Shown here: one piece after another, positions 23,657 to 38,651 of the stretch
How positions within the stretch are numbered: position 1 is the stretch's first letter
Layout of the letters: every line of letters starts with the position of its first letter
Source: Brachyspira hyodysenteriae ATCC 27164
GTDB lineage: Bacteria > Spirochaetota > Brachyspiria > Brachyspirales > Brachyspiraceae
Assembly: GCF_001676785.2 (NCBI RefSeq)
Contig: NZ_CP015910.2
Span: 1,984,001-2,048,000, forward strand
Direction: 5' to 3'
Length of the DNA stretch: 64,000 bases
Made by a program: the position numbers and the translations under genes
The notes under the pieces: model-generated
The model's input: only the letters and a program-made list of their open reading frames with translations
Told to the model about the DNA's origin: nothing
Database searches by the model: none

Positions 23657-25231
23657 TTACTCTACAGATTCAAATTTCAAACTATAAGTAACCTCAACCT
23701 CTTCTCCGTTTGAAGCATCATTACCTTTCATCCATTTGTATCTTATAGTAAGATCTTTAGTTTCACCTCTCTTAAGAGTAAAATCAGGTGTATAATAACT
23801 TATAGTTGTAGAAAGTCCGTCATTATTCATAACAGAGTTTGCAATATCCACAACAAACTGCTCATTATCAGCATCATACTTTAACTTTAATTTAGGCATA
23901 TCTTTAGAAGCAACCTCTCCGCTTCCTCCTTTTCCAAAGTTATCAGTATCTATGCAAGTTATACCAATAGCTTTAAGTGTATTATATTTAAATATACGCG
24001 AAGCTAAATCTATACATACATTTTCATTTATATTTTTAATCTCAAAAGATTTACTTGAATTAAAATTAATATAGTTATTTTTATCTATTTTCTTAACTTC
24101 ATTTACATATATCATACCTGTAAGACTGCTATCTCTAGGATCTAAATGTTCTATATCAGTTAAAGTACCGTCAGAAATTTCACTATTATAAGCAGAAGCA
24201 GATATAGTATATGTAAAGTATCCGTAATCTCTAATATCATCATATTGAGGTTTTAATGACCAACTTAAATATCCTTCAGCACTTCTAGCACTTATATTTT
24301 TAAAGCTTTTAGCCATTATTGTTACATTATCTTTTACAGTTGCTTCAACTTTAATAGGCATATAAGGAGATCTTCCAGCAACACCTTTTGAAGCTATAGG
24401 TCTGCTTAAATCTATTTTATTTCCTTCTACTCTTGGTCCGTATAATTTATTATTTCCTATTGAATCAGAACACCATTGATAAATTTCTATAGTACCATCT
24501 TCATGAACTATACCAACAGGATCATATTCATAGAAATATTGTATGCCGTCTGTTTTATTGAAATATACTTCGCCTCCGGTTTCATAAATTTCATAACCTG
24601 ATTCAACAGCTCCCCAAGATATAGGCATGTATTTTATCAAAACATTCTCCCATGCCATAGGTACAGCAAAAGCAAATACCAATTTTGAATATTTATCTAT
24701 ACATATTAAATAATTATTTACATCCTTTCCAGCAGAACTTCCTTTTAGTCTATAGAAATAAAATCTCTCCAATCTGCTGCTTTGATTATATTTACTATCA
24801 ATACTATAATTTGGATTTTTTCCTTTATATAAATAGTAAGTAACACTTCCTATACTAAAATTTCCTGCTTCACATGATAAATTTCCGCCGTTTTTATAAG
24901 CATTACTAGCAGGATAAGGATCCCAAGTACCTTTTTCTAATCTGTAAGTAGGTCTGTTATTACCGTCAAAATCTGCTCTTATTACAAGATTATCTAGGTC
25001 TAAAGTAAATCCACCATAATCAGGTCTATTCCAATCTCCGGTTTGAAATGGATCGTCTTCAGGTGCTAATCCCTCTCCACCTCCACCTAAATCTGGATTA
25101 TCAGGAACATTACCCTCACTTGATGATCCTCTATTATTATAATAATATCTTGGATTGAAATAGTTTCCGCATGAAATAATAAATGTAAATGATACAAATA
25201 ATATAATTAATAAAAAAATTATCTTTTTCAT
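23657..25231 (-). CDS. NPRYYY-family lipoprotein, long form B
   Basis: 524 aa from the ATG at 25231 (lipobox FIISC). The N-terminal module matches the neighbours closely: NPRYYYNNRGSSSEGNVPDN, ADFDGNNRPTYRLEKGTW, YSKLVFAFAVP and GRSPYMPIKVEA. From about residue 300 it carries a second domain shared with long form C: TIMAKSFKNIS, YNSEISDGTLTDIEHLDPR, GMIYVNEVKKI and KLKYDADNEQFVVD. It ends ..LKFESVE. The second domain is predicted beta-rich. Probably an outer-membrane-anchored lipoprotein; exposure is not shown by sequence. Confidence 0.65.
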   Translation of the reverse strand: MKKIIFLLIILFVSFTFIISCGNYFNPRYYYNNRGSSSEGNVPDNPDLGGGGEGLAPEDDPFQTGDWNRPDYGGFTLDLDNLVIRADFDGNNRPTYRLEKGTWDPYPASNAYKNGGNLSCEAGNFSIGSVTYYLYKGKNPNYSIDSKYNQSSRLERFYFYRLKGSSAGKDVNNYLICIDKYSKLVFAFAVPMAWENVLIKYMPISWGAVESGYEIYETGGEVYFNKTDGIQYFYEYDPVGIVHEDGTIEIYQWCSDSIGNNKLYGPRVEGNKIDLSRPIASKGVAGRSPYMPIKVEATVKDNVTIMAKSFKNISARSAEGYLSWSLKPQYDDIRDYGYFTYTISASAYNSEISDGTLTDIEHLDPRDSSLTGMIYVNEVKKIDKNNYINFNSSKSFEIKNINENVCIDLASRIFKYNTLKAIGITCIDTDNFGKGGSGEVASKDMPKLKLKYDADNEQFVVDIANSVMNNDGLSTTISYYTPDFTLKRGETKDLTIRYKWMKGNDASNGEEVEVTYSLKFESVE

Positions 25232-25273
25232 AAAAATCTCCAAATTTTAATTTGGTTATATATACATTAAAAA

Positions 25274-25305
25274 TATAGGCATCAGAGTATTATCCAATGC
25301 CTATA
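25274..25305 (-). repeat. Duplicated intergenic hairpin, copy 2
   Basis: The same TATAGGCAT/ATGCCTATA stem as at 23614-23645, again 12 bases after a lipoprotein stop codon. Gene plus 3' hairpin appear to have been duplicated as a unit. Confidence 0.6.
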
Positions 25306-25316
25306 TTTATTTATCT

Positions 25317-26879
25317 TTACTGTACAGATTCAAATTTCAAAGTATAAGTAATTTCAAACTCTTCACCATTTGAAGTATCATTACCTTTCATCCATTTGTA
25401 TCTTATAGTAATATCCTTAGTTTCACCTCTCTTAAGAGTAAAATCTGCAGGATAAGAACTTATAGTTGTAGAAAGATCATTATTACTCATAACAGAATTT
25501 TCAGTATCCACAACAAACTGTTCATTATCAACATCATACTTTAATTTCAAAATAGGTGCTGAAACAGCTGCCATATTTCCGCTGCCTCGTTGTCCAAATT
25601 TAGCAGTATCGGCAAAGGATGTTTCTTTATTGTATTTATCAACACGAGAAGCTAATTCTATAGTAGCACCTTTTTCTATACTCCTTACCTCAGCTACTAT
25701 TTGAGAAGAGAAGTTAACTTGACCTCCAACAGATATATCTTTTGTTTCACTTAAGTATATCATACCTGTAGTAGATTCAGATCTAGGGTCTAAGTTTTCT
25801 ATATTCTGTAAAACTCCGCTTCCCATTTCATTATTATAAGCGGTTCCTGCTATTGTATATGTAAACCAAGCATTATTTTGAATATCGCCTCCAAAAATTC
25901 CTGCCCAATATACTCTACTTTTTACACTCACATTTTTCAAGCTTTTAGCCATTATTGTTACATTGTCTTTAGTACCAGCTTCTACTTTAATAGGCATATA
26001 AGGAGAACGTCCTGCAACATCTTTTGAAGCTATAGGTCTGTCTAGATTTATTACATTACCTTCTACTCTAGGACCATATCTATTTCCAGCTATTGAATTC
26101 AAACACCAATCATATATTTTTATAGTGTTATCAGGAAGAACTATACCTACAGGGTCATATTCATAAAAATATTGTACGCCATCTGTATTATTGAAATATA
26201 TAGGCTTACCTGTTTCACTATCAGTTTCCCAACCTAACTCAACTGCCCCCCAAGCTATAGGCATCCATTTTATAACAGCCCATTCCCATTTTGTAGGAAC
26301 GCCGAAAGCAAATACCAATTTTGAGTAGCTATCTATACATATTAAATAGTTATCAACAGGTTTTCCTGCAGAACTTCCAACTAAATGATAGAAATAAAAT
26401 CTTTCCATTCTGCTGCTCTGATTATATGAACTATTAGGATCATATGTAGGATTTTTCCCTTTATACATATAATAAGTAACATTACCTATAGTAAAACTTC
26501 CAGCAGCAGATGATAAATTACCGCCATTTTTATAGCTGTTTTTGGCAGGATTATGTGAAGTCCAAGTACCCTTTTCTAATCTGTAAGTAGGTCTGTTATT
26601 ACCATCAAAATCTGCTCTTATTACAAGCTCATCAAGGTTTAAAGTAAATCCGCCGTAATTAGGATCATTCCATGGTTTATCTCCATTATCATTATTAAAA
26701 GGATCGTCTTCAGGAGATAACCCCTCTCCTCCTCCGCCTATATCAGGGTTATCAGGAACATTACCCTCACTTGATGATCCTCTGCTATTATAATAATATC
26801 TTGGATTGAAATAATTTCCGCAAGACATTAAAAATATTGATATTATAGAAATAAATAGTAAATAATATATTTTCTTCAT
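25317..26879 (-). CDS. NPRYYY-family lipoprotein, long form C
   Basis: 520 aa, lipobox FLMSC, then GNYFNPRYYYNSRGSSSEGN. It has the same two-part layout as form B. The first module is the closest to form B (ADFDGNNRPTYRLEKGTW), and the last 90 residues are nearly the same (KLKYDVDNEQFVVDTENSVM). The segment between about 315 and 400 is more variable. It follows the putative beta-barrel gene by 14 bases, so barrel and lipoproteins are probably cotranscribed and may form one outer-membrane assembly; this is inference. Confidence 0.65.
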   Translation of the reverse strand: MKKIYYLLFISIISIFLMSCGNYFNPRYYYNSRGSSSEGNVPDNPDIGGGGEGLSPEDDPFNNDNGDKPWNDPNYGGFTLNLDELVIRADFDGNNRPTYRLEKGTWTSHNPAKNSYKNGGNLSSAAGSFTIGNVTYYMYKGKNPTYDPNSSYNQSSRMERFYFYHLVGSSAGKPVDNYLICIDSYSKLVFAFGVPTKWEWAVIKWMPIAWGAVELGWETDSETGKPIYFNNTDGVQYFYEYDPVGIVLPDNTIKIYDWCLNSIAGNRYGPRVEGNVINLDRPIASKDVAGRSPYMPIKVEAGTKDNVTIMAKSLKNVSVKSRVYWAGIFGGDIQNNAWFTYTIAGTAYNNEMGSGVLQNIENLDPRSESTTGMIYLSETKDISVGGQVNFSSQIVAEVRSIEKGATIELASRVDKYNKETSFADTAKFGQRGSGNMAAVSAPILKLKYDVDNEQFVVDTENSVMSNNDLSTTISSYPADFTLKRGETKDITIRYKWMKGNDTSNGEEFEITYTLKFESVQ

Positions 26880-33578: not shown

Positions 33579-34631
33579 TTGATTAGACATTCCAGACCTA
33601 CTATAAGAAAAAAAGATTTAGAATCCGCTTTAAAAGTAATGATTAGCGATAATCTTGCTACAGGAGATGTTATACAAGAATTTGAAAGAAGTTTTGCTAA
33701 TTATTTCGGCAAGGGTTTTACAGCAATATTTGTTAATAGCGGAACTGCTGCATTAGAACTTATATTAAGACATTTAAAAGTTGGTGAAGGCGATGAAGTT
33801 ATAATGTCATCTTTTCTTAATGCCTCACCTCTTCAAGTAGTTACAAGTTTAAAAGCTACTCCTGTTTTAATAGATATAGACGAAGACAGTTTTCAAATAT
33901 CTATGGATAATGTTATAGAGGCTATCAATGAAAAAACTAAAGCAATTATAGTTTCTCATATGTTTGGAAATTGTGCGTTAATTGATGAGCTTGCTGATAT
34001 AAAAGTGCCTGTTATAGAAGATGCTTCTCATAGTTTGGGAGGCAAATACAGAGATACTTTACTTGGAAGTTTCGGAGATTTTGCATACTTCTCTCTTTCT
34101 GCAACTAGAATGATAACTTCAGGCGGTGCAGGAGGAATGATACTTACAAAGAAAAAAGGAATGGATGCTATAAGAGATATAATTCACTATGATAAAAAAG
34201 AAAATTTTATAAGAAGATTCAATTATTGCGCAACTGATCTTCAGGCTTCAATAGGTATAGAAGAACTTAAACATCTTGAAAGAATGGTTGAAGTAAGAAG
34301 TGATATAGCTTCGTTTTATGATAATGCTATACTTGAAAGCAATTTAATGAAATTATCTACTCATGATAGTGAAAGCCCTTCTCATTATAGATATGTATGT
34401 ATGCTTAACGGCAGTATGAATATATACGATGCTATAAAAATGTTTGAAAGACATAATGTAGAAGCGGCAAGACCTATATTTAAACCTCTGCATCAGTATC
34501 TTAATTTACCTAATGAAAATTATCCTAATACTGAGAATGCATATTTAAAAAGCATATCATTGCCTATATACCCTACTTTGCAAAAAAATGAAGCTGAGCT
34601 AATTTGCAAACTTATAAAACAGATAAGATGA
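33579..34631 (+). CDS. DegT/DnrJ/EryC1/StrS-family PLP-fold protein lacking the lysine
   Basis: 350 aa, TTG start. Typical features of the sugar aminotransferase family: TGDVIQEFERSFANYFG, NSGTAALELILRHL, GDEVIMSSFLNAS, IEDASHSLGG with D148, and a C-terminal RPIFKPLHQY. In the segment that normally reads FSFHxTKxITxGxGG it has FSLSATRMITSGGAGG, so the Schiff-base lysine is Arg177. An ordinary aminotransferase reaction should not be possible. It may bind PLP without transamination, act in another way, or be a structural or regulatory relative. Alone on its strand before znuB. Confidence 0.8.
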   Translation: MIRHSRPTIRKKDLESALKVMISDNLATGDVIQEFERSFANYFGKGFTAIFVNSGTAALELILRHLKVGEGDEVIMSSFLNASPLQVVTSLKATPVLIDIDEDSFQISMDNVIEAINEKTKAIIVSHMFGNCALIDELADIKVPVIEDASHSLGGKYRDTLLGSFGDFAYFSLSATRMITSGGAGGMILTKKKGMDAIRDIIHYDKKENFIRRFNYCATDLQASIGIEELKHLERMVEVRSDIASFYDNAILESNLMKLSTHDSESPSHYRYVCMLNGSMNIYDAIKMFERHNVEAARPIFKPLHQYLNLPNENYPNTENAYLKSISLPIYPTLQKNEAELICKLIKQIR

Positions 34632-34670: not shown

Positions 34671-35486
34671 ATGGAAATATTTGAATATGATTTTATGCGT
34701 AAAGCTTTCCTAGTAGGTATTATGCTTGCTGTGATAATACCTTGCATAGGAGTTGTTGTAGTATTAAAAAGACTTTCTATGATAGGAGATGCTATTTCAC
34801 ATACTTCGCTTGCTGGGGTTACATTCGGTTTAGTTTTTAATATAAACCCTATAGTCGCATCAATCATATTCTGCATATTGTCTGCATTATCAATAGAGTT
34901 CATAAGAAAGAAAATAGCTAAATATGGTGAGATGTCTATATCAATTATAATGTCTTTGTCTATAGGAGTGGCAGGGCTTCTTTCAGGATTTGTAGCTAAC
35001 AATTCAAACTTTAACAGCTTTTTATTTGGAAGTATTGTTGCTATAAGCGATTTTGAATTGAAATTGGTAATATTGATAAGCTCAATATCAATACTAATTT
35101 TCATCTTCCTATACAAAGAAATTTTTTATATAACTTTTAATGAAAGATTAGCAAAATTATCTGGTGTGCCTGTAAATAGGATTAACTTCATTTTTACAAT
35201 ATTAACTGCTATTACTGTATCAATATCAGCAAGAGCAGTTGGGGCATTAATAGTTTCATCAATGATGGTTGTTCCTGTTGCATGTTCTATGCAGGTAGCT
35301 AATAGTTATAAAAAAACCATTATTTTTGCTGTGATATTCAATCTATTTTTTACTATATTAGGAATATTTATTTCATATTATCAAGGCTTAAAACCAGGAG
35401 CAACTATAGTACTAATAAGCATTGCTACTTTTATAATTATAATTTTATTAAAATCAATACTATCATCAAAAAATAGTGCGGCATAA
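34671..35486 (+). CDS. znuB: Metal (zinc/manganese) ABC transporter permease
   Basis: A 271-aa inner-membrane protein of the ABC-3 family, with about eight helices. Family hallmarks: IPCIGVVVVLKRLSMIGDAI (cytoplasmic loop), SHTSLAGVTFG, ITVSISARAVGALIVSSMMV. The cognate ATPase and binding protein are not beside it but 1.5 kb away on the opposite strand (37038-38651), beyond a repeat and the vsp gene. No SBP or ATPase lies on this side. Zinc is preferred over manganese because of the partner's sequence, but not proven. Confidence 0.85.
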   Translation: MEIFEYDFMRKAFLVGIMLAVIIPCIGVVVVLKRLSMIGDAISHTSLAGVTFGLVFNINPIVASIIFCILSALSIEFIRKKIAKYGEMSISIIMSLSIGVAGLLSGFVANNSNFNSFLFGSIVAISDFELKLVILISSISILIFIFLYKEIFYITFNERLAKLSGVPVNRINFIFTILTAITVSISARAVGALIVSSMMVVPVACSMQVANSYKKTIIFAVIFNLFFTILGIFISYYQGLKPGATIVLISIATFIIIILLKSILSSKNSAA

Positions 35487-35518
35487 TTATTTATTAAATA
35501 TTGAATTTTAATTACATA

Positions 35519-35828
35519 TGCCCACCCTATAAATTTATAGTCTAATTTCTAATAACACATTACATTTCTTTTTTGCTTTTTCCGTAATTGTAACACCCAC
35601 CCTAAGCTTTATTTAAATTTAAAATCATCTAAGCGCACGCAAAATGAAATTTAAAATATAGATTGATTAAAAATAGAATTTAAATTATATCAAAAAACGC
35701 ATAAACCGTGCGTTTAATAAAATTCTAAATTTAATCAACACTTGGGCGGGTGCTGGAAATTCTAATTAGACAAAAAATATAATGAAGATAAAAATACAAA
35801 ATAAAGCAGTAAAAAATAAAGGGCGGGG
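35519..35828. repeat. Nested palindromic intergenic repeat
   Basis: A GC-box-studded non-coding region between znuB and vsp. The inner pair is CACCCACCCTAAG at 35594 and its imperfect complement ending GGGCGGGTG at 35752, with matching ATTTAAATTT-type inner arms. The outer pair is GCCCACCC at 35519 and GGGCGGG at 35821. Inside lies an ACGCA-7-TGCGT hairpin (35697-35713). The G/C boxes are striking in otherwise AT-rich DNA. It looks like a MITE or folded RNA element; no open reading frame. Confidence 0.5.
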
Positions 35829-35847
35829 AATTAAAATAAAATTAAAT

Positions 35848-35880
35848 AAAAAAGGCTTAAATATTAATAATATTCAAGCC
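35848..35880 (-). terminator. Terminator of the vsp gene
   Basis: On the minus strand GGCTT-GAATATT is paired with AATATTT-AAGCC (one mismatch), followed by TTTTTTATTT. It lies 25 bases past the vsp stop. Confidence 0.8.
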
Positions 35881-35905
35881 CTTTCATTATTTCTAATTTA
35901 TATTA

Positions 35906-36952
35906 TTACTCTGCTGCTCCGAAAGAAGGCAAGTACCAAGTAATACCTGTAGTAGATGCAAAGCTAATAGGAACTCCTCCCTCATTATTTACATCCATCT
36001 CAAAATACCATTCTAAATCTTCAACAGGAGTAATATAAAGTTCTGCATAAGCTGACCAAGCTAAAGAATGATTAAGTTTAGAACCTTTTCTACCATCATC
36101 ATAAATAGAATAACCTAATCCAGGCTCTAAATAAAGAGAAACTACATCACTGCTTGCCTCTAAAGCTAAAGTAGGAAGTATAGATAAAGTATAAGTTTCT
36201 CTATCAAGTAAATCAGCTGCAGTTGTTGTAGGAATAACAACACTGTCTGATAATACTTCATAACTTCCAGTAGATTTACCTTTAGCACCTAAAGAAGTAT
36301 CATAAGTTACTTTGATGAAAGGATTAAGAGTAACATTTCCAACCATAGCTCCGAAATATAATCTGAAATCAAAACCAAAAGAAGAAGCTGTATATGTTTC
36401 TGATGCAGTTTTAGTTTGATTCATACCATATTTAACTATTAATCTTACTTGATTGAGCAAATCTATTCCTGTATAGTATCTGATTTGAGGATCTAAACTA
36501 ATACCCATATAATTACCATAAGTATTATCTAATTTATCTTTTACAGCTACTTGAACAGGAACTACTATTCTTAAATTATTAGCTAAAGCATTAACAGCTA
36601 AAACAGGAGTATGTACATCTAATTTATATACTTCAGAATAAGTATAATTATAACCAAGTCCTATACCTATTACATCAGAAGTATAACCTATACCTGCTGA
36701 AACTGTAGCATCTAATTTAGTCTCTGCTGAAGAAGTTAAAATAGATCCCCAATATCCTGTATTAGCTCTGAAACCAACAGTACCTTTAATACTGTCATTT
36801 CCTAATACAAAACCTAATTGATCCATTCTTGCTCTGAATTGATTTCCGTCTGTAAGAAAATCAATCCAATCATTGTTGTTGCCGTACATACCAAATACTA
36901 AAGAATTTGTAATTGATAATAAAGCAATCATCATTAATAAAATCTTTTTCAT
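35906..36952 (-). CDS. Variable surface protein Vsp family (39-kDa outer membrane protein)
   Basis: 348 aa. Signal peptide MKKILLMMIALLSITNSLVFG, then MYGNNNDWIDFLTDGNQFRA and RMDQLGFVLGNDSIKGTVGF, the start I recall for Brachyspira hyodysenteriae Vsp proteins. The rest is amphipathic beta-strand with D/N/G turns (SAGIGYTSDVIGIGLGYNYT; VTLNPFIKVTYDTS; LEWYFEMDVNNEG), as in an outer-membrane barrel. Vsp proteins are major surface antigens in multi-gene families; only one copy is in this window. AGGAG ribosome site and a consensus promoter indicate high expression. Confidence 0.85.
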   Translation of the reverse strand: MKKILLMMIALLSITNSLVFGMYGNNNDWIDFLTDGNQFRARMDQLGFVLGNDSIKGTVGFRANTGYWGSILTSSAETKLDATVSAGIGYTSDVIGIGLGYNYTYSEVYKLDVHTPVLAVNALANNLRIVVPVQVAVKDKLDNTYGNYMGISLDPQIRYYTGIDLLNQVRLIVKYGMNQTKTASETYTASSFGFDFRLYFGAMVGNVTLNPFIKVTYDTSLGAKGKSTGSYEVLSDSVVIPTTTAADLLDRETYTLSILPTLALEASSDVVSLYLEPGLGYSIYDDGRKGSKLNHSLAWSAYAELYITPVEDLEWYFEMDVNNEGGVPISFASTTGITWYLPSFGAAE

Positions 36953-36980
36953 ATTTCATTCTCCTAAAAAAATTGGGAGA

Positions 36981-37009
36981 ATTATATATTTTATTGACAA
37001 AAAAATCAA
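36981..37009 (-). promoter_or_regulatory. Strong promoter of vsp
   Basis: Minus-strand TTGATT (37004-37009), 17-base spacer, TATAAT (36981-36986), about 30 bases before the ATG at 36952. Confidence 0.7.
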
Positions 37010-37037
37010 ATTTATTTTACAATTTATTTTAATAAAA

Positions 37038-37778
37038 TTAACATGAACAAATATGATCGCTATTAGGATGTTTATGCTTATGAGAAAGTTCATCATATAT
37101 TTGTTTCTTTTCAAGTTCAACTAAAGAACCTTCTTCAAAACAAAATATTCTATTAGATATATTAGATGTTTTCTCTACATCATGAGTAACCATTATTATA
37201 GTTACTTTTTTTTCTTTATTTAAATCCTGTAAAATTTTATATATCAAATCAATAGTTTCTCTATCAACTCCATTAGTTGGTTCATCAAGTACAAGTAAGT
37301 CAGGTTCAGATATTAATGTTCTGGCTAAAAAAACTCTCTGAATTTGTCCGCCGGAAAGCTTAGATATCATTCTGTTTTTATATTTTTCCATACCCAAAAG
37401 CTCTAATGCTTTAATAACCTTAACATGATGACTTTTATTTGGAAATTTAAATAAACCTATATCAGCAAAATTATTGGACATCACTATTTCATAAACAGTA
37501 GCAGGAAAATTTATAATCTTTGAATATGCATTCTGTTCTAAATACCCTATTCTTTTCCAATCTCTGAATTTATTTATATCTTCTTCATAAAGTTTTATGC
37601 TTCCTCTAAATTGACTTATCTCTCCTAAAATAAGTTTTAATATAGTGCTTTTTCCAACTCCATTGGAACCTATTATAGATACAAAATCTCCTTTATTTAC
37701 ATCAAAACTTATACATTTAAGTATATCATCAGAAGTGTATCCGAAATGCACATTTTTAAATTCTATAATCTTACTCAT
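37038..37778 (-). CDS. znuC: Zinc ABC transporter ATP-binding protein with metal-binding tail
   Basis: A 246-aa ATPase. Walker A GSNGVGKST, Q-loop GYLEQN, signature LSGGQIQRVFLARTL, Walker B LLVLDEPTNGVD and H-loop MVTHDVEKT are intact. The last residues (SHKHKHPNSDHICSC) concentrate four His and two Cys, a likely zinc-sensing or zinc-storage tail. It is coupled to the upstream binding-protein gene by a 9-base gap; the permease is on the other strand at 34671-35486. Confidence 0.88.
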   Translation of the reverse strand: MSKIIEFKNVHFGYTSDDILKCISFDVNKGDFVSIIGSNGVGKSTILKLILGEISQFRGSIKLYEEDINKFRDWKRIGYLEQNAYSKIINFPATVYEIVMSNNFADIGLFKFPNKSHHVKVIKALELLGMEKYKNRMISKLSGGQIQRVFLARTLISEPDLLVLDEPTNGVDRETIDLIYKILQDLNKEKKVTIIMVTHDVEKTSNISNRIFCFEEGSLVELEKKQIYDELSHKHKHPNSDHICSC

Positions 37779-37787
37779 AATATTATT

Positions 37788-38651
37788 TTAATTAAGTCCA
37801 TTAGTTAAAGAGATAAGATTTTCTTCCATTACAGAAAAATAATCTTCTCCAGCATTAATATATTCTTCGCTTAAAGATTCTATAGGATTTAATGTAAGTA
37901 TTTTTACGCCTGTCTCTTTTGCTATAGAATCTACTAGCTTAGAACTTGAAAAATCTTCATAGAATATAGCTTTAACATTATTATTTTTTATAAAAGCTAT
38001 AGTATCAGACATAGCCTTAGGATCAGCTTCATCTCTTGCAATAGCAACTTGATTCAATGAATATTCTTCGCAAAAATGTCCGAAAGCAGGATGAGTTACC
38101 ACTAAATTAGTACTTTTCATATTTGATAAAACATATTTAAAATGATTATCTAATTCATCCAATCTATCAGCATAAAAATTATAATTAGAATTATAATAAT
38201 CCGCATTAACAGAATCTATCTCTATTAATGCATTTTTTATATTCTCCATTTGTTTCTTAGCCTTAATAGGCGAAAGCCAAAAATGAGGATCCAATCCGTC
38301 ATTATTTATATTAAAAGCAGTTTCCACATATTTTAATTCTTTTATACTGTCTTTAACTGTATCAACCCAATGCTCCATACCGCCGCCATTATAAATAAAC
38401 AAATTCGCCTTTGTTAAATTAGCCATATCTTTTGAAGTTATTTCAAAATCATGAGGCTCTGATCCTGTAGAAGTCATATTATATACATCAGCTTTATCTC
38501 CGCATATTTTTTTGGCAAAATCATACATCGGATAAATACTAGCATAAACCTTTAACTTATTTGAAGAATCTTGATTTTGATTATTTCCTGAACTATTACT
38601 GCATCCTATTAATAATGATAATATAAAAATGATTGTTAAAATTTTTTTCAT
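37788..38651 (-). CDS. znuA: Zinc-binding lipoprotein of an ABC transporter (ZnuA-like)
   Basis: 287 aa, lipobox LLIGC, cluster A-I fold. Metal ligands expected: His in GSEPHDFEI, His in DGLDPHFWLSP, His in THPAFGHFCEEY, Asp/Glu in FYEDFSSSKLVD. The conserved NLFIYNGGGMEHWV is present. The His-rich loop of E. coli ZnuA is missing, replaced by a short polar linker. Its role is to deliver Zn2+ (or Mn2+) to the permease. It opens divergently from the META-domain lipoprotein genes; the 183-base gap is AT-rich and could contain a Zur-type operator that I cannot identify. Confidence 0.85.
   Translation of the reverse strand: MKKILTIIFILSLLIGCSNSSGNNQNQDSSNKLKVYASIYPMYDFAKKICGDKADVYNMTSTGSEPHDFEITSKDMANLTKANLFIYNGGGMEHWVDTVKDSIKELKYVETAFNINNDGLDPHFWLSPIKAKKQMENIKNALIEIDSVNADYYNSNYNFYADRLDELDNHFKYVLSNMKSTNLVVTHPAFGHFCEEYSLNQVAIARDEADPKAMSDTIAFIKNNNVKAIFYEDFSSSKLVDSIAKETGVKILTLNPIESLSEEYINAGEDYFSVMEENLISLTNGLN

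Follow-up and report, generated by a model that had tools for sequence, protein, structure and literature searches.

A PLP-fold protein can be kept after its lysine is gone, as for LCB1 of serine palmitoyltransferase, a fold-type-I protein that is without its lysine and is paired with the active LCB2. In ColD, E1 (RfbH), and SpnQ, His stands in place of Lys, and these proteins are 3-dehydratases of the same fold (PMC8987622). The lysine-bearing form of the site is described for Spr1654, where Ser194 (phosphate) and Lys199 (aldimine) are set five residues apart (PMC5936713). Within the limited set of literature searched, no paper was found on a lysine-less DegT family of spirochaetes.

Here, we describe a gene of Brachyspira hyodysenteriae ATCC 27164, located in a stretch of 64,000 nucleotides (the window), whose product shares the whole fold and the pocket Asp, His, Ser, and Thr of the ArnB/GDP-perosamine synthase class at 26–28% identity. 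It differs from that class in being without the PLP lysine, in having a longer SGGAGG loop after this site, without the usual Glu, and in lying outside a sugar operon. Compared with ColD, E1, and SpnQ, the fold is the same (E1 Z 42.2) and so is the residue replaced (PMC8987622), but the Brachyspira protein has Arg where the others have His. An analogy to ColD had been drawn from the DNA letters by a sequence-only reading; it is correct as chemistry, with His for Lys in these enzymes (PMC8987622), whereas no sign of a ColD-like activity was seen in our comparison. With roughly even confidence, we favor the reading that the Brachyspira Arg type is a non-transaminating, probably ligand-binding protein.

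A DegT-Fold Product With Arginine at the PLP-Lysine Position

The 350-residue product matches PF01041 (DegT/DnrJ/EryC1/StrS) over residues 8–346, with a whole-length profile score of 233.9 bits against a cut-off of 19.8. Narrower assignments were not reached: the scores lie far under the cut-offs of the PseC (TIGR03588, 166 vs. 423.5 bits) and ArnB (NF008658, 149.6 vs. 631 bits) equivalogs, and the curated cut-off for RfbH (E1) was likewise not attained (107.3 vs. 423 bits). The TTG start (Table 1) is common to 29 of the 30 loci of the taxonomic family, which is unusually constant for a weak start.

Table 1. Coordinates in the window of the DegT-like gene, its pocket residues, and neighboring transporter genes. 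Roles given by analogy with Spr1654 follow PMC5936713.
Feature	Position	Strand	Basis or remark
CDS, 350 aa, DegT-fold protein of the spirochaete lysine-less clade	33579..34631	+	TTG start, stop included
G55-T56, phosphate-site motif (NSGTAAL)	33741..33746	+	G55 in 15/15 Lys/Arg members, 0/91 others
E147-D148; D148 expected partner of pyridine N1	34017..34022	+	D148 in 104/106 members; role by analogy with Spr1654 Asp170 (PMC5936713)
S172, expected phosphate contact, five residues ahead of site 177	34092..34094	+	Analogy with Spr1654 Ser194/Lys199 (PMC5936713)
Codon 177, AGA = Arg, at the PLP-lysine position	34107..34109	+	Read in sequence; phmmer and profile alignments
SGGAGG loop (181-186), longer by one residue than TGEGG, the usual form	34119..34136	+	Alignment
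N215 in RFNY	34221..34223	+	N in 13/15 Lys/Arg members, 0/91 others
H305 of KPLHQYL, conserved clade-wide	34491..34493	+	13/15 Lys/Arg members, 87/91 others
Permease (PF00950), part of a split ABC transporter	Just after the DegT-like gene	+	Profile match
ATPase-like gene	37038-37778	-	By eye
Binding-protein-like gene	37788-38651	-	By eye

The sequence-only reading had placed Arg177 where the Schiff-base Lys belongs, and this was confirmed. R177 falls in the lysine column of phmmer alignments to solved sugar aminotransferases (FSLSATRMITSGG vs. FSFFGNKIITTG), and in a profile search the same column holds K in 3dr7 and A in 3dr4, the latter titled ‘GDP-perosamine synthase K186A mutant’. Because these two sequences differ there, the column is that of the PLP lysine, and misalignment of R177 is ruled out. 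The lysine for the internal aldimine is thus absent, Arg177 occupying its column, while all 24 viral-contig DegT proteins of the alignment used for structure modeling (A3) have K at the site. The spacing between S172 and site 177 matches that of Ser194 and Lys199 in Spr1654 (PMC5936713).

The cofactor pocket is otherwise present in the Brachyspira protein: D148 (Asp to N1), S172 and T56 (Ser/Thr to phosphate), and H151 (His/Gln to O3′) are in place, as are F79 and N215, and E147–D148 is kept as had been said from the sequence. A first structure model, built on the shallow alignment A2, had a pLDDT of 44 and was set aside; the A3 model (36 rows) has a mean pLDDT of 92.4 and a pTM of 0.91, and residues 206–211, covering the K206–K207 loop, are its only segment under a pLDDT of 50. 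It agrees with the fold of sugar aminotransferases, the best solved matches being GDP-perosamine synthase 3bn1 (TM 0.91) and ArnB (Z 45.7, rmsd 2.2, 347 aligned). The best 50 VIA-align matches do not include ColD, which has no bearing on ColD likeness.

The intact pocket, together with a fold like that of ArnB and perosamine synthase, would also suit a protein that has stayed an aminotransferase, whether a slow enzyme able to tolerate Arg or an enzyme that takes its amine from another lysine, e.g., K206 or K207 of the mobile loop. Both of these lysines, which lie in a low-confidence loop, are present in every one of the ten rows from the two families of the order and could in principle serve as an amine source, a point against the reading of a non-transaminating protein. 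However, they are equally invariant in the K-bearing orthologues among these rows and therefore do not track lysine loss. Residual aminotransferase activity is further opposed by the arginine mutants of aspartate aminotransferase, which are crippled, and we consider it distinctly unlikely.

Conservation of Arg177 in Brachyspira and Its Near Relatives

The taxonomic family is represented by 30 loci in 29 genomes, and site 177 is Arg in 28 of these loci (codons AGA 26, CGA 1, CGG 1) and Lys in two (both AAA). Arg is found in all 27 Brachyspira loci (26 genomes) and in the single locus of genus g3, Lys in both genomes of genus g2 (G026 and G027), whose proteins are 75–76% identical to the Brachyspira protein. 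Both matching genomes of f2, the other family of the order (the sister family), also have Arg, at 58–60% identity. NG86 dN/dS was about 0.05–0.13 for eight pairs, with dS reaching 0.6–2. Because Arg recurs in 28 of the 30 family loci, a sequencing error is excluded, and with such low dN/dS values a pseudogene is ruled out as well. Conservation of R177, a check proposed from the sequence, therefore extends through most of the family and into f2 but breaks down in g2. The Lys of G026 and G027 is the kind of observation in close homologues that had been named as speaking against the earlier proposal; it does so only in part, and the tree nests these Lys residues within Arg.

The main rival to our reading is that of a PMP- or PLP-dependent enzyme holding its cofactor non-covalently, with Arg177 as an acid/base or electrostatic catalyst in the manner of the ColD, E1, and SpnQ His. 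All R members have an intact pocket, R is fixed under purifying selection, and natural His-for-Lys dehydratases of the same fold are known (PMC8987622). Yet orthologues with 75% identity use Lys in place of Arg, so that a specially evolved catalytic role for Arg is disfavored, and most of the clade has dropped any basic residue. The window, moreover, has no sugar-pathway genes adjoining the DegT-like gene, and the Brachyspira neighbors are not conserved. On balance, such an enzyme seems unlikely.

A Spirochaete Clade That Has Largely Lost the Lysine

The wider distribution was surveyed in 392 genomes of the phylum Spirochaetota, a sample of a larger group, and up to five candidates were scored in each genome. 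A search with the window protein picked up 98 of the 392 genomes at E ≤ 1e-45, and a profile of 46 members picked up 127 at E ≤ 1e-90; the 265 genomes without a match at the latter threshold may hold more divergent members. From the 127 members, 106 were aligned, the 21 left out being near-copies from Brachyspira genomes, all with Arg. Thirteen residue types occur at site 177 in the 106 rows (M 37, D 13, H 13, S 11, R 8, G 8, K 7, E 3, N 2, and C, A, Q, and T one each), and 91 members, with eleven residue types among them, have neither K nor R.

Loss of the basic residue goes together with loss of part of the phosphate site. G55 and N215, the latter presumably a phosphate contact supplied by the partner subunit, are both absent in every one of the 91 non-K/R members, whereas the K/R members retain G55 in 15 of 15 and N215 in 13 of 15. 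D148 is retained in nearly all members (Table 1) and H305 in 100 of the 106. The thirteen members with His belong to families f6 and f17 (within L217–L244) and resemble ColD and E1 at this site but are without G55 and N215; this is probably convergence without the same chemistry.

The Brachyspira protein belongs with these lysine-less proteins by overall sequence. A profile trained on 62 rows, taken only from families without any K or R, gave the window protein 341 bits, vs. 222 for the best canonical paralogue. At the site, the 26 canonical spirochaete paralogues have K (20), H (5), or S (1), and the five sampled His-type paralogues of these genomes fall in the outgroup, which also sets the Brachyspira protein apart from ColD, E1, and SpnQ.

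The LCB1 precedent raises the possibility that the protein is inactive and forms a heterodimer with a paralogue that has the lysine. The source genome (3.07 Mb, two contigs) would offer candidates, as it encodes three more strong PF01041 proteins (L001–L003), each with K at the site, and sugar aminotransferases of the same fold are dimers with shared sites (PMC5936713). These paralogues, however, are encoded far from the DegT-like gene, one of them on the small second contig, and in genome G155 a lysine-less member of the Asp type is the sole PF01041 match at E ≤ 1e-40, so that no lysine-bearing partner of this family is at hand there. LCB1 is likewise a PLP-fold protein without its lysine but has an active LCB2 partner, whereas G155 is without another strong PF01041 protein, and a heterodimer appears highly improbable.

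Order of Residue Changes

A tree was built from 77 clade rows and the 26 canonical paralogues after removal of sites 55, 172, 177, and 215. The clade is monophyletic with respect to the canonical paralogues (branch 100/100) and broadly follows species families. In the subtree of the two families (ten rows), g2 with its Lys is nested among Arg-bearing rows (branches 100/99, 99/94, and 100/97); Lys and Arg therefore seem exchangeable. For the ancestor of this subtree, parsimony assigns one change to R and three to K. If the Lys-bearing family f10 is taken as sister, two steps suffice for a stem change from Lys to Arg plus a single reversal, and three separate Lys-to-Arg changes take three, so that the R-before-K order drawn from these sequences is preferred by one parsimony step, which is not proof. 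If loss is irreversible, K/R must have disappeared completely on two or more separate occasions.

Gene Neighborhood and Pterin Synthases

The sequence-only reading had suggested a search for a partner enzyme, and none was found: the genes upstream and downstream vary among Brachyspira species, and a partner inferred from this neighborhood was rejected. An ABC-3 permease gene lies directly downstream in the window, but the same order was seen in only 6 of the 18 loci L038–L055, some of them on short contigs. The permease appears to belong to a zinc/manganese-type ABC transporter seemingly split across strands (window 34671–38651). Elsewhere in the window, on the minus strand at 23657–26879, two large lipoprotein-like genes that closely resemble each other (528 and 520 aa) stand in tandem, an apparent duplication by eye.

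Across the clade, a gene of the PTPS/QueD type follows on the same strand, 3–257 bp downstream, in 36 of 106 loci (e.g., L066, L068, L070, and L103). This count was obtained by tblastn (35 of 77 rows plus 1 of 29), and a stricter ORF-based count gave 29 of 105. The CExxHGH motif occurs in 28 of the 29 ORF-called neighbors; it marks a PTPS-I/III hybrid able to serve folate and queuosine (PMC5041015). Matches to FolB were obtained in 4 of 22 spirochaete genomes tested, to HPPK in 18, and to PTPS in 19; because 18 of the 22 are without FolB, the neighboring PTPS is likely a folate PTPS-III replacement. An RlpA-like lipoprotein gene (labeled by eye) was also seen upstream in divergent orientation in 36 of the 105 loci with a called focal gene (L064, L066, L068, L070, and others).

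The PTPS neighbors, found at both Arg-type f2 loci too, suggest that the DegT-like protein could act jointly with the pterin synthase encoded next to it, in the metabolism of folate or queuosine. None of the seven Lys-type loci has one, however. Searches of the source genome of the window gave no matches for PTPS, FolB, HPPK, or QueC, and PTPS is absent from 28 of the 29 genomes of the Brachyspira family, although the DegT-like gene is retained. A pterin link can thus be no more than part of the function, a folate/queuosine link was rejected for Brachyspira itself, and we regard joint action with the pterin synthase as quite improbable.

Functional Interpretation

The reading of a non-transaminating protein draws on the place of R177 in the lysine column, the retention of Arg with low dN/dS, the monophyly of the clade, and the co-loss of G55 and N215. 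The higher score with the non-K/R profile, the nesting of K within R, the fold of the model, and the sole PF01041 protein of G155 argue for it as well. The gene would belong to a DegT-fold clade of spirochaetes, inherited vertically, whose members have departed from lysine-PLP transamination. On the Brachyspira branch, Lys may have changed to Arg on the stem of the two families while G55, T56, D148, H151, S172, and N215 stayed, and on most other branches Lys would have given way to Met, Asp, His, Ser, Gly, and other residues, with G55 and N215 lost alongside. As best read from the alignments, the Brachyspira form would be an intermediate, its pocket intact and its aldimine lysine gone.

Given a Lys-to-Arg change with the pocket retained, in a clade that is leaving lysine-PLP chemistry, the Brachyspira protein is most likely unable to form an internal aldimine and would be without transaminase turnover. 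Non-covalent binding of a ligand with a phosphate group (PLP, PMP, or a nucleotide-sugar-like compound) is probable, Arg177 giving a positive charge. Because most relatives in its lineage have also lost the lysine, another job is probable, and we infer a ligand-binding or structural/regulatory role in a conserved spirochaete process. On the other side, it would be odd for the K/R members to retain the full pocket if no cofactor were bound, these members may be unlike the 91 others, and both K orthologues, at ~75% identity, could be ordinary PLP enzymes. A new reaction, PMP-bound use, and a non-enzymatic role had all been offered from the sequence; the comparison favors a departure from lysine-PLP transamination and, among the three, leans to the non-enzymatic one.

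More broadly, and tentatively, an ancient spirochaete DegT-fold protein may have been converted stepwise from a PLP aminotransferase to a lysine-free protein that took on a new, conserved role, a proposal that we rate as plausible but somewhat short of even. Its stages would still be living: Lys with the full pocket, Arg with the full pocket (Brachyspira and the sister family), and a form in which the basic residue is gone and the phosphate site dismantled, whose gene often seems to share an operon with a pterin synthase of the hybrid PTPS-I/III type. Domain libraries place the clade in the aminotransferase family PF01041, though 91 of its 106 aligned members have neither Lys nor Arg at the site; should the clade members prove not to be aminotransferases, a single conserved gene is wrongly described in much of Spirochaetota. 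The series from Lys through Arg to neither is a natural set for studying how a cofactor enzyme turns into something else. The clade may also extend outside spirochaetes, because a Lys-bearing protein of Lawsonia intracellularis plasmid 2 (L299) scores 287 bits with the clade profile, intermediate between the clade and the canonical paralogues.
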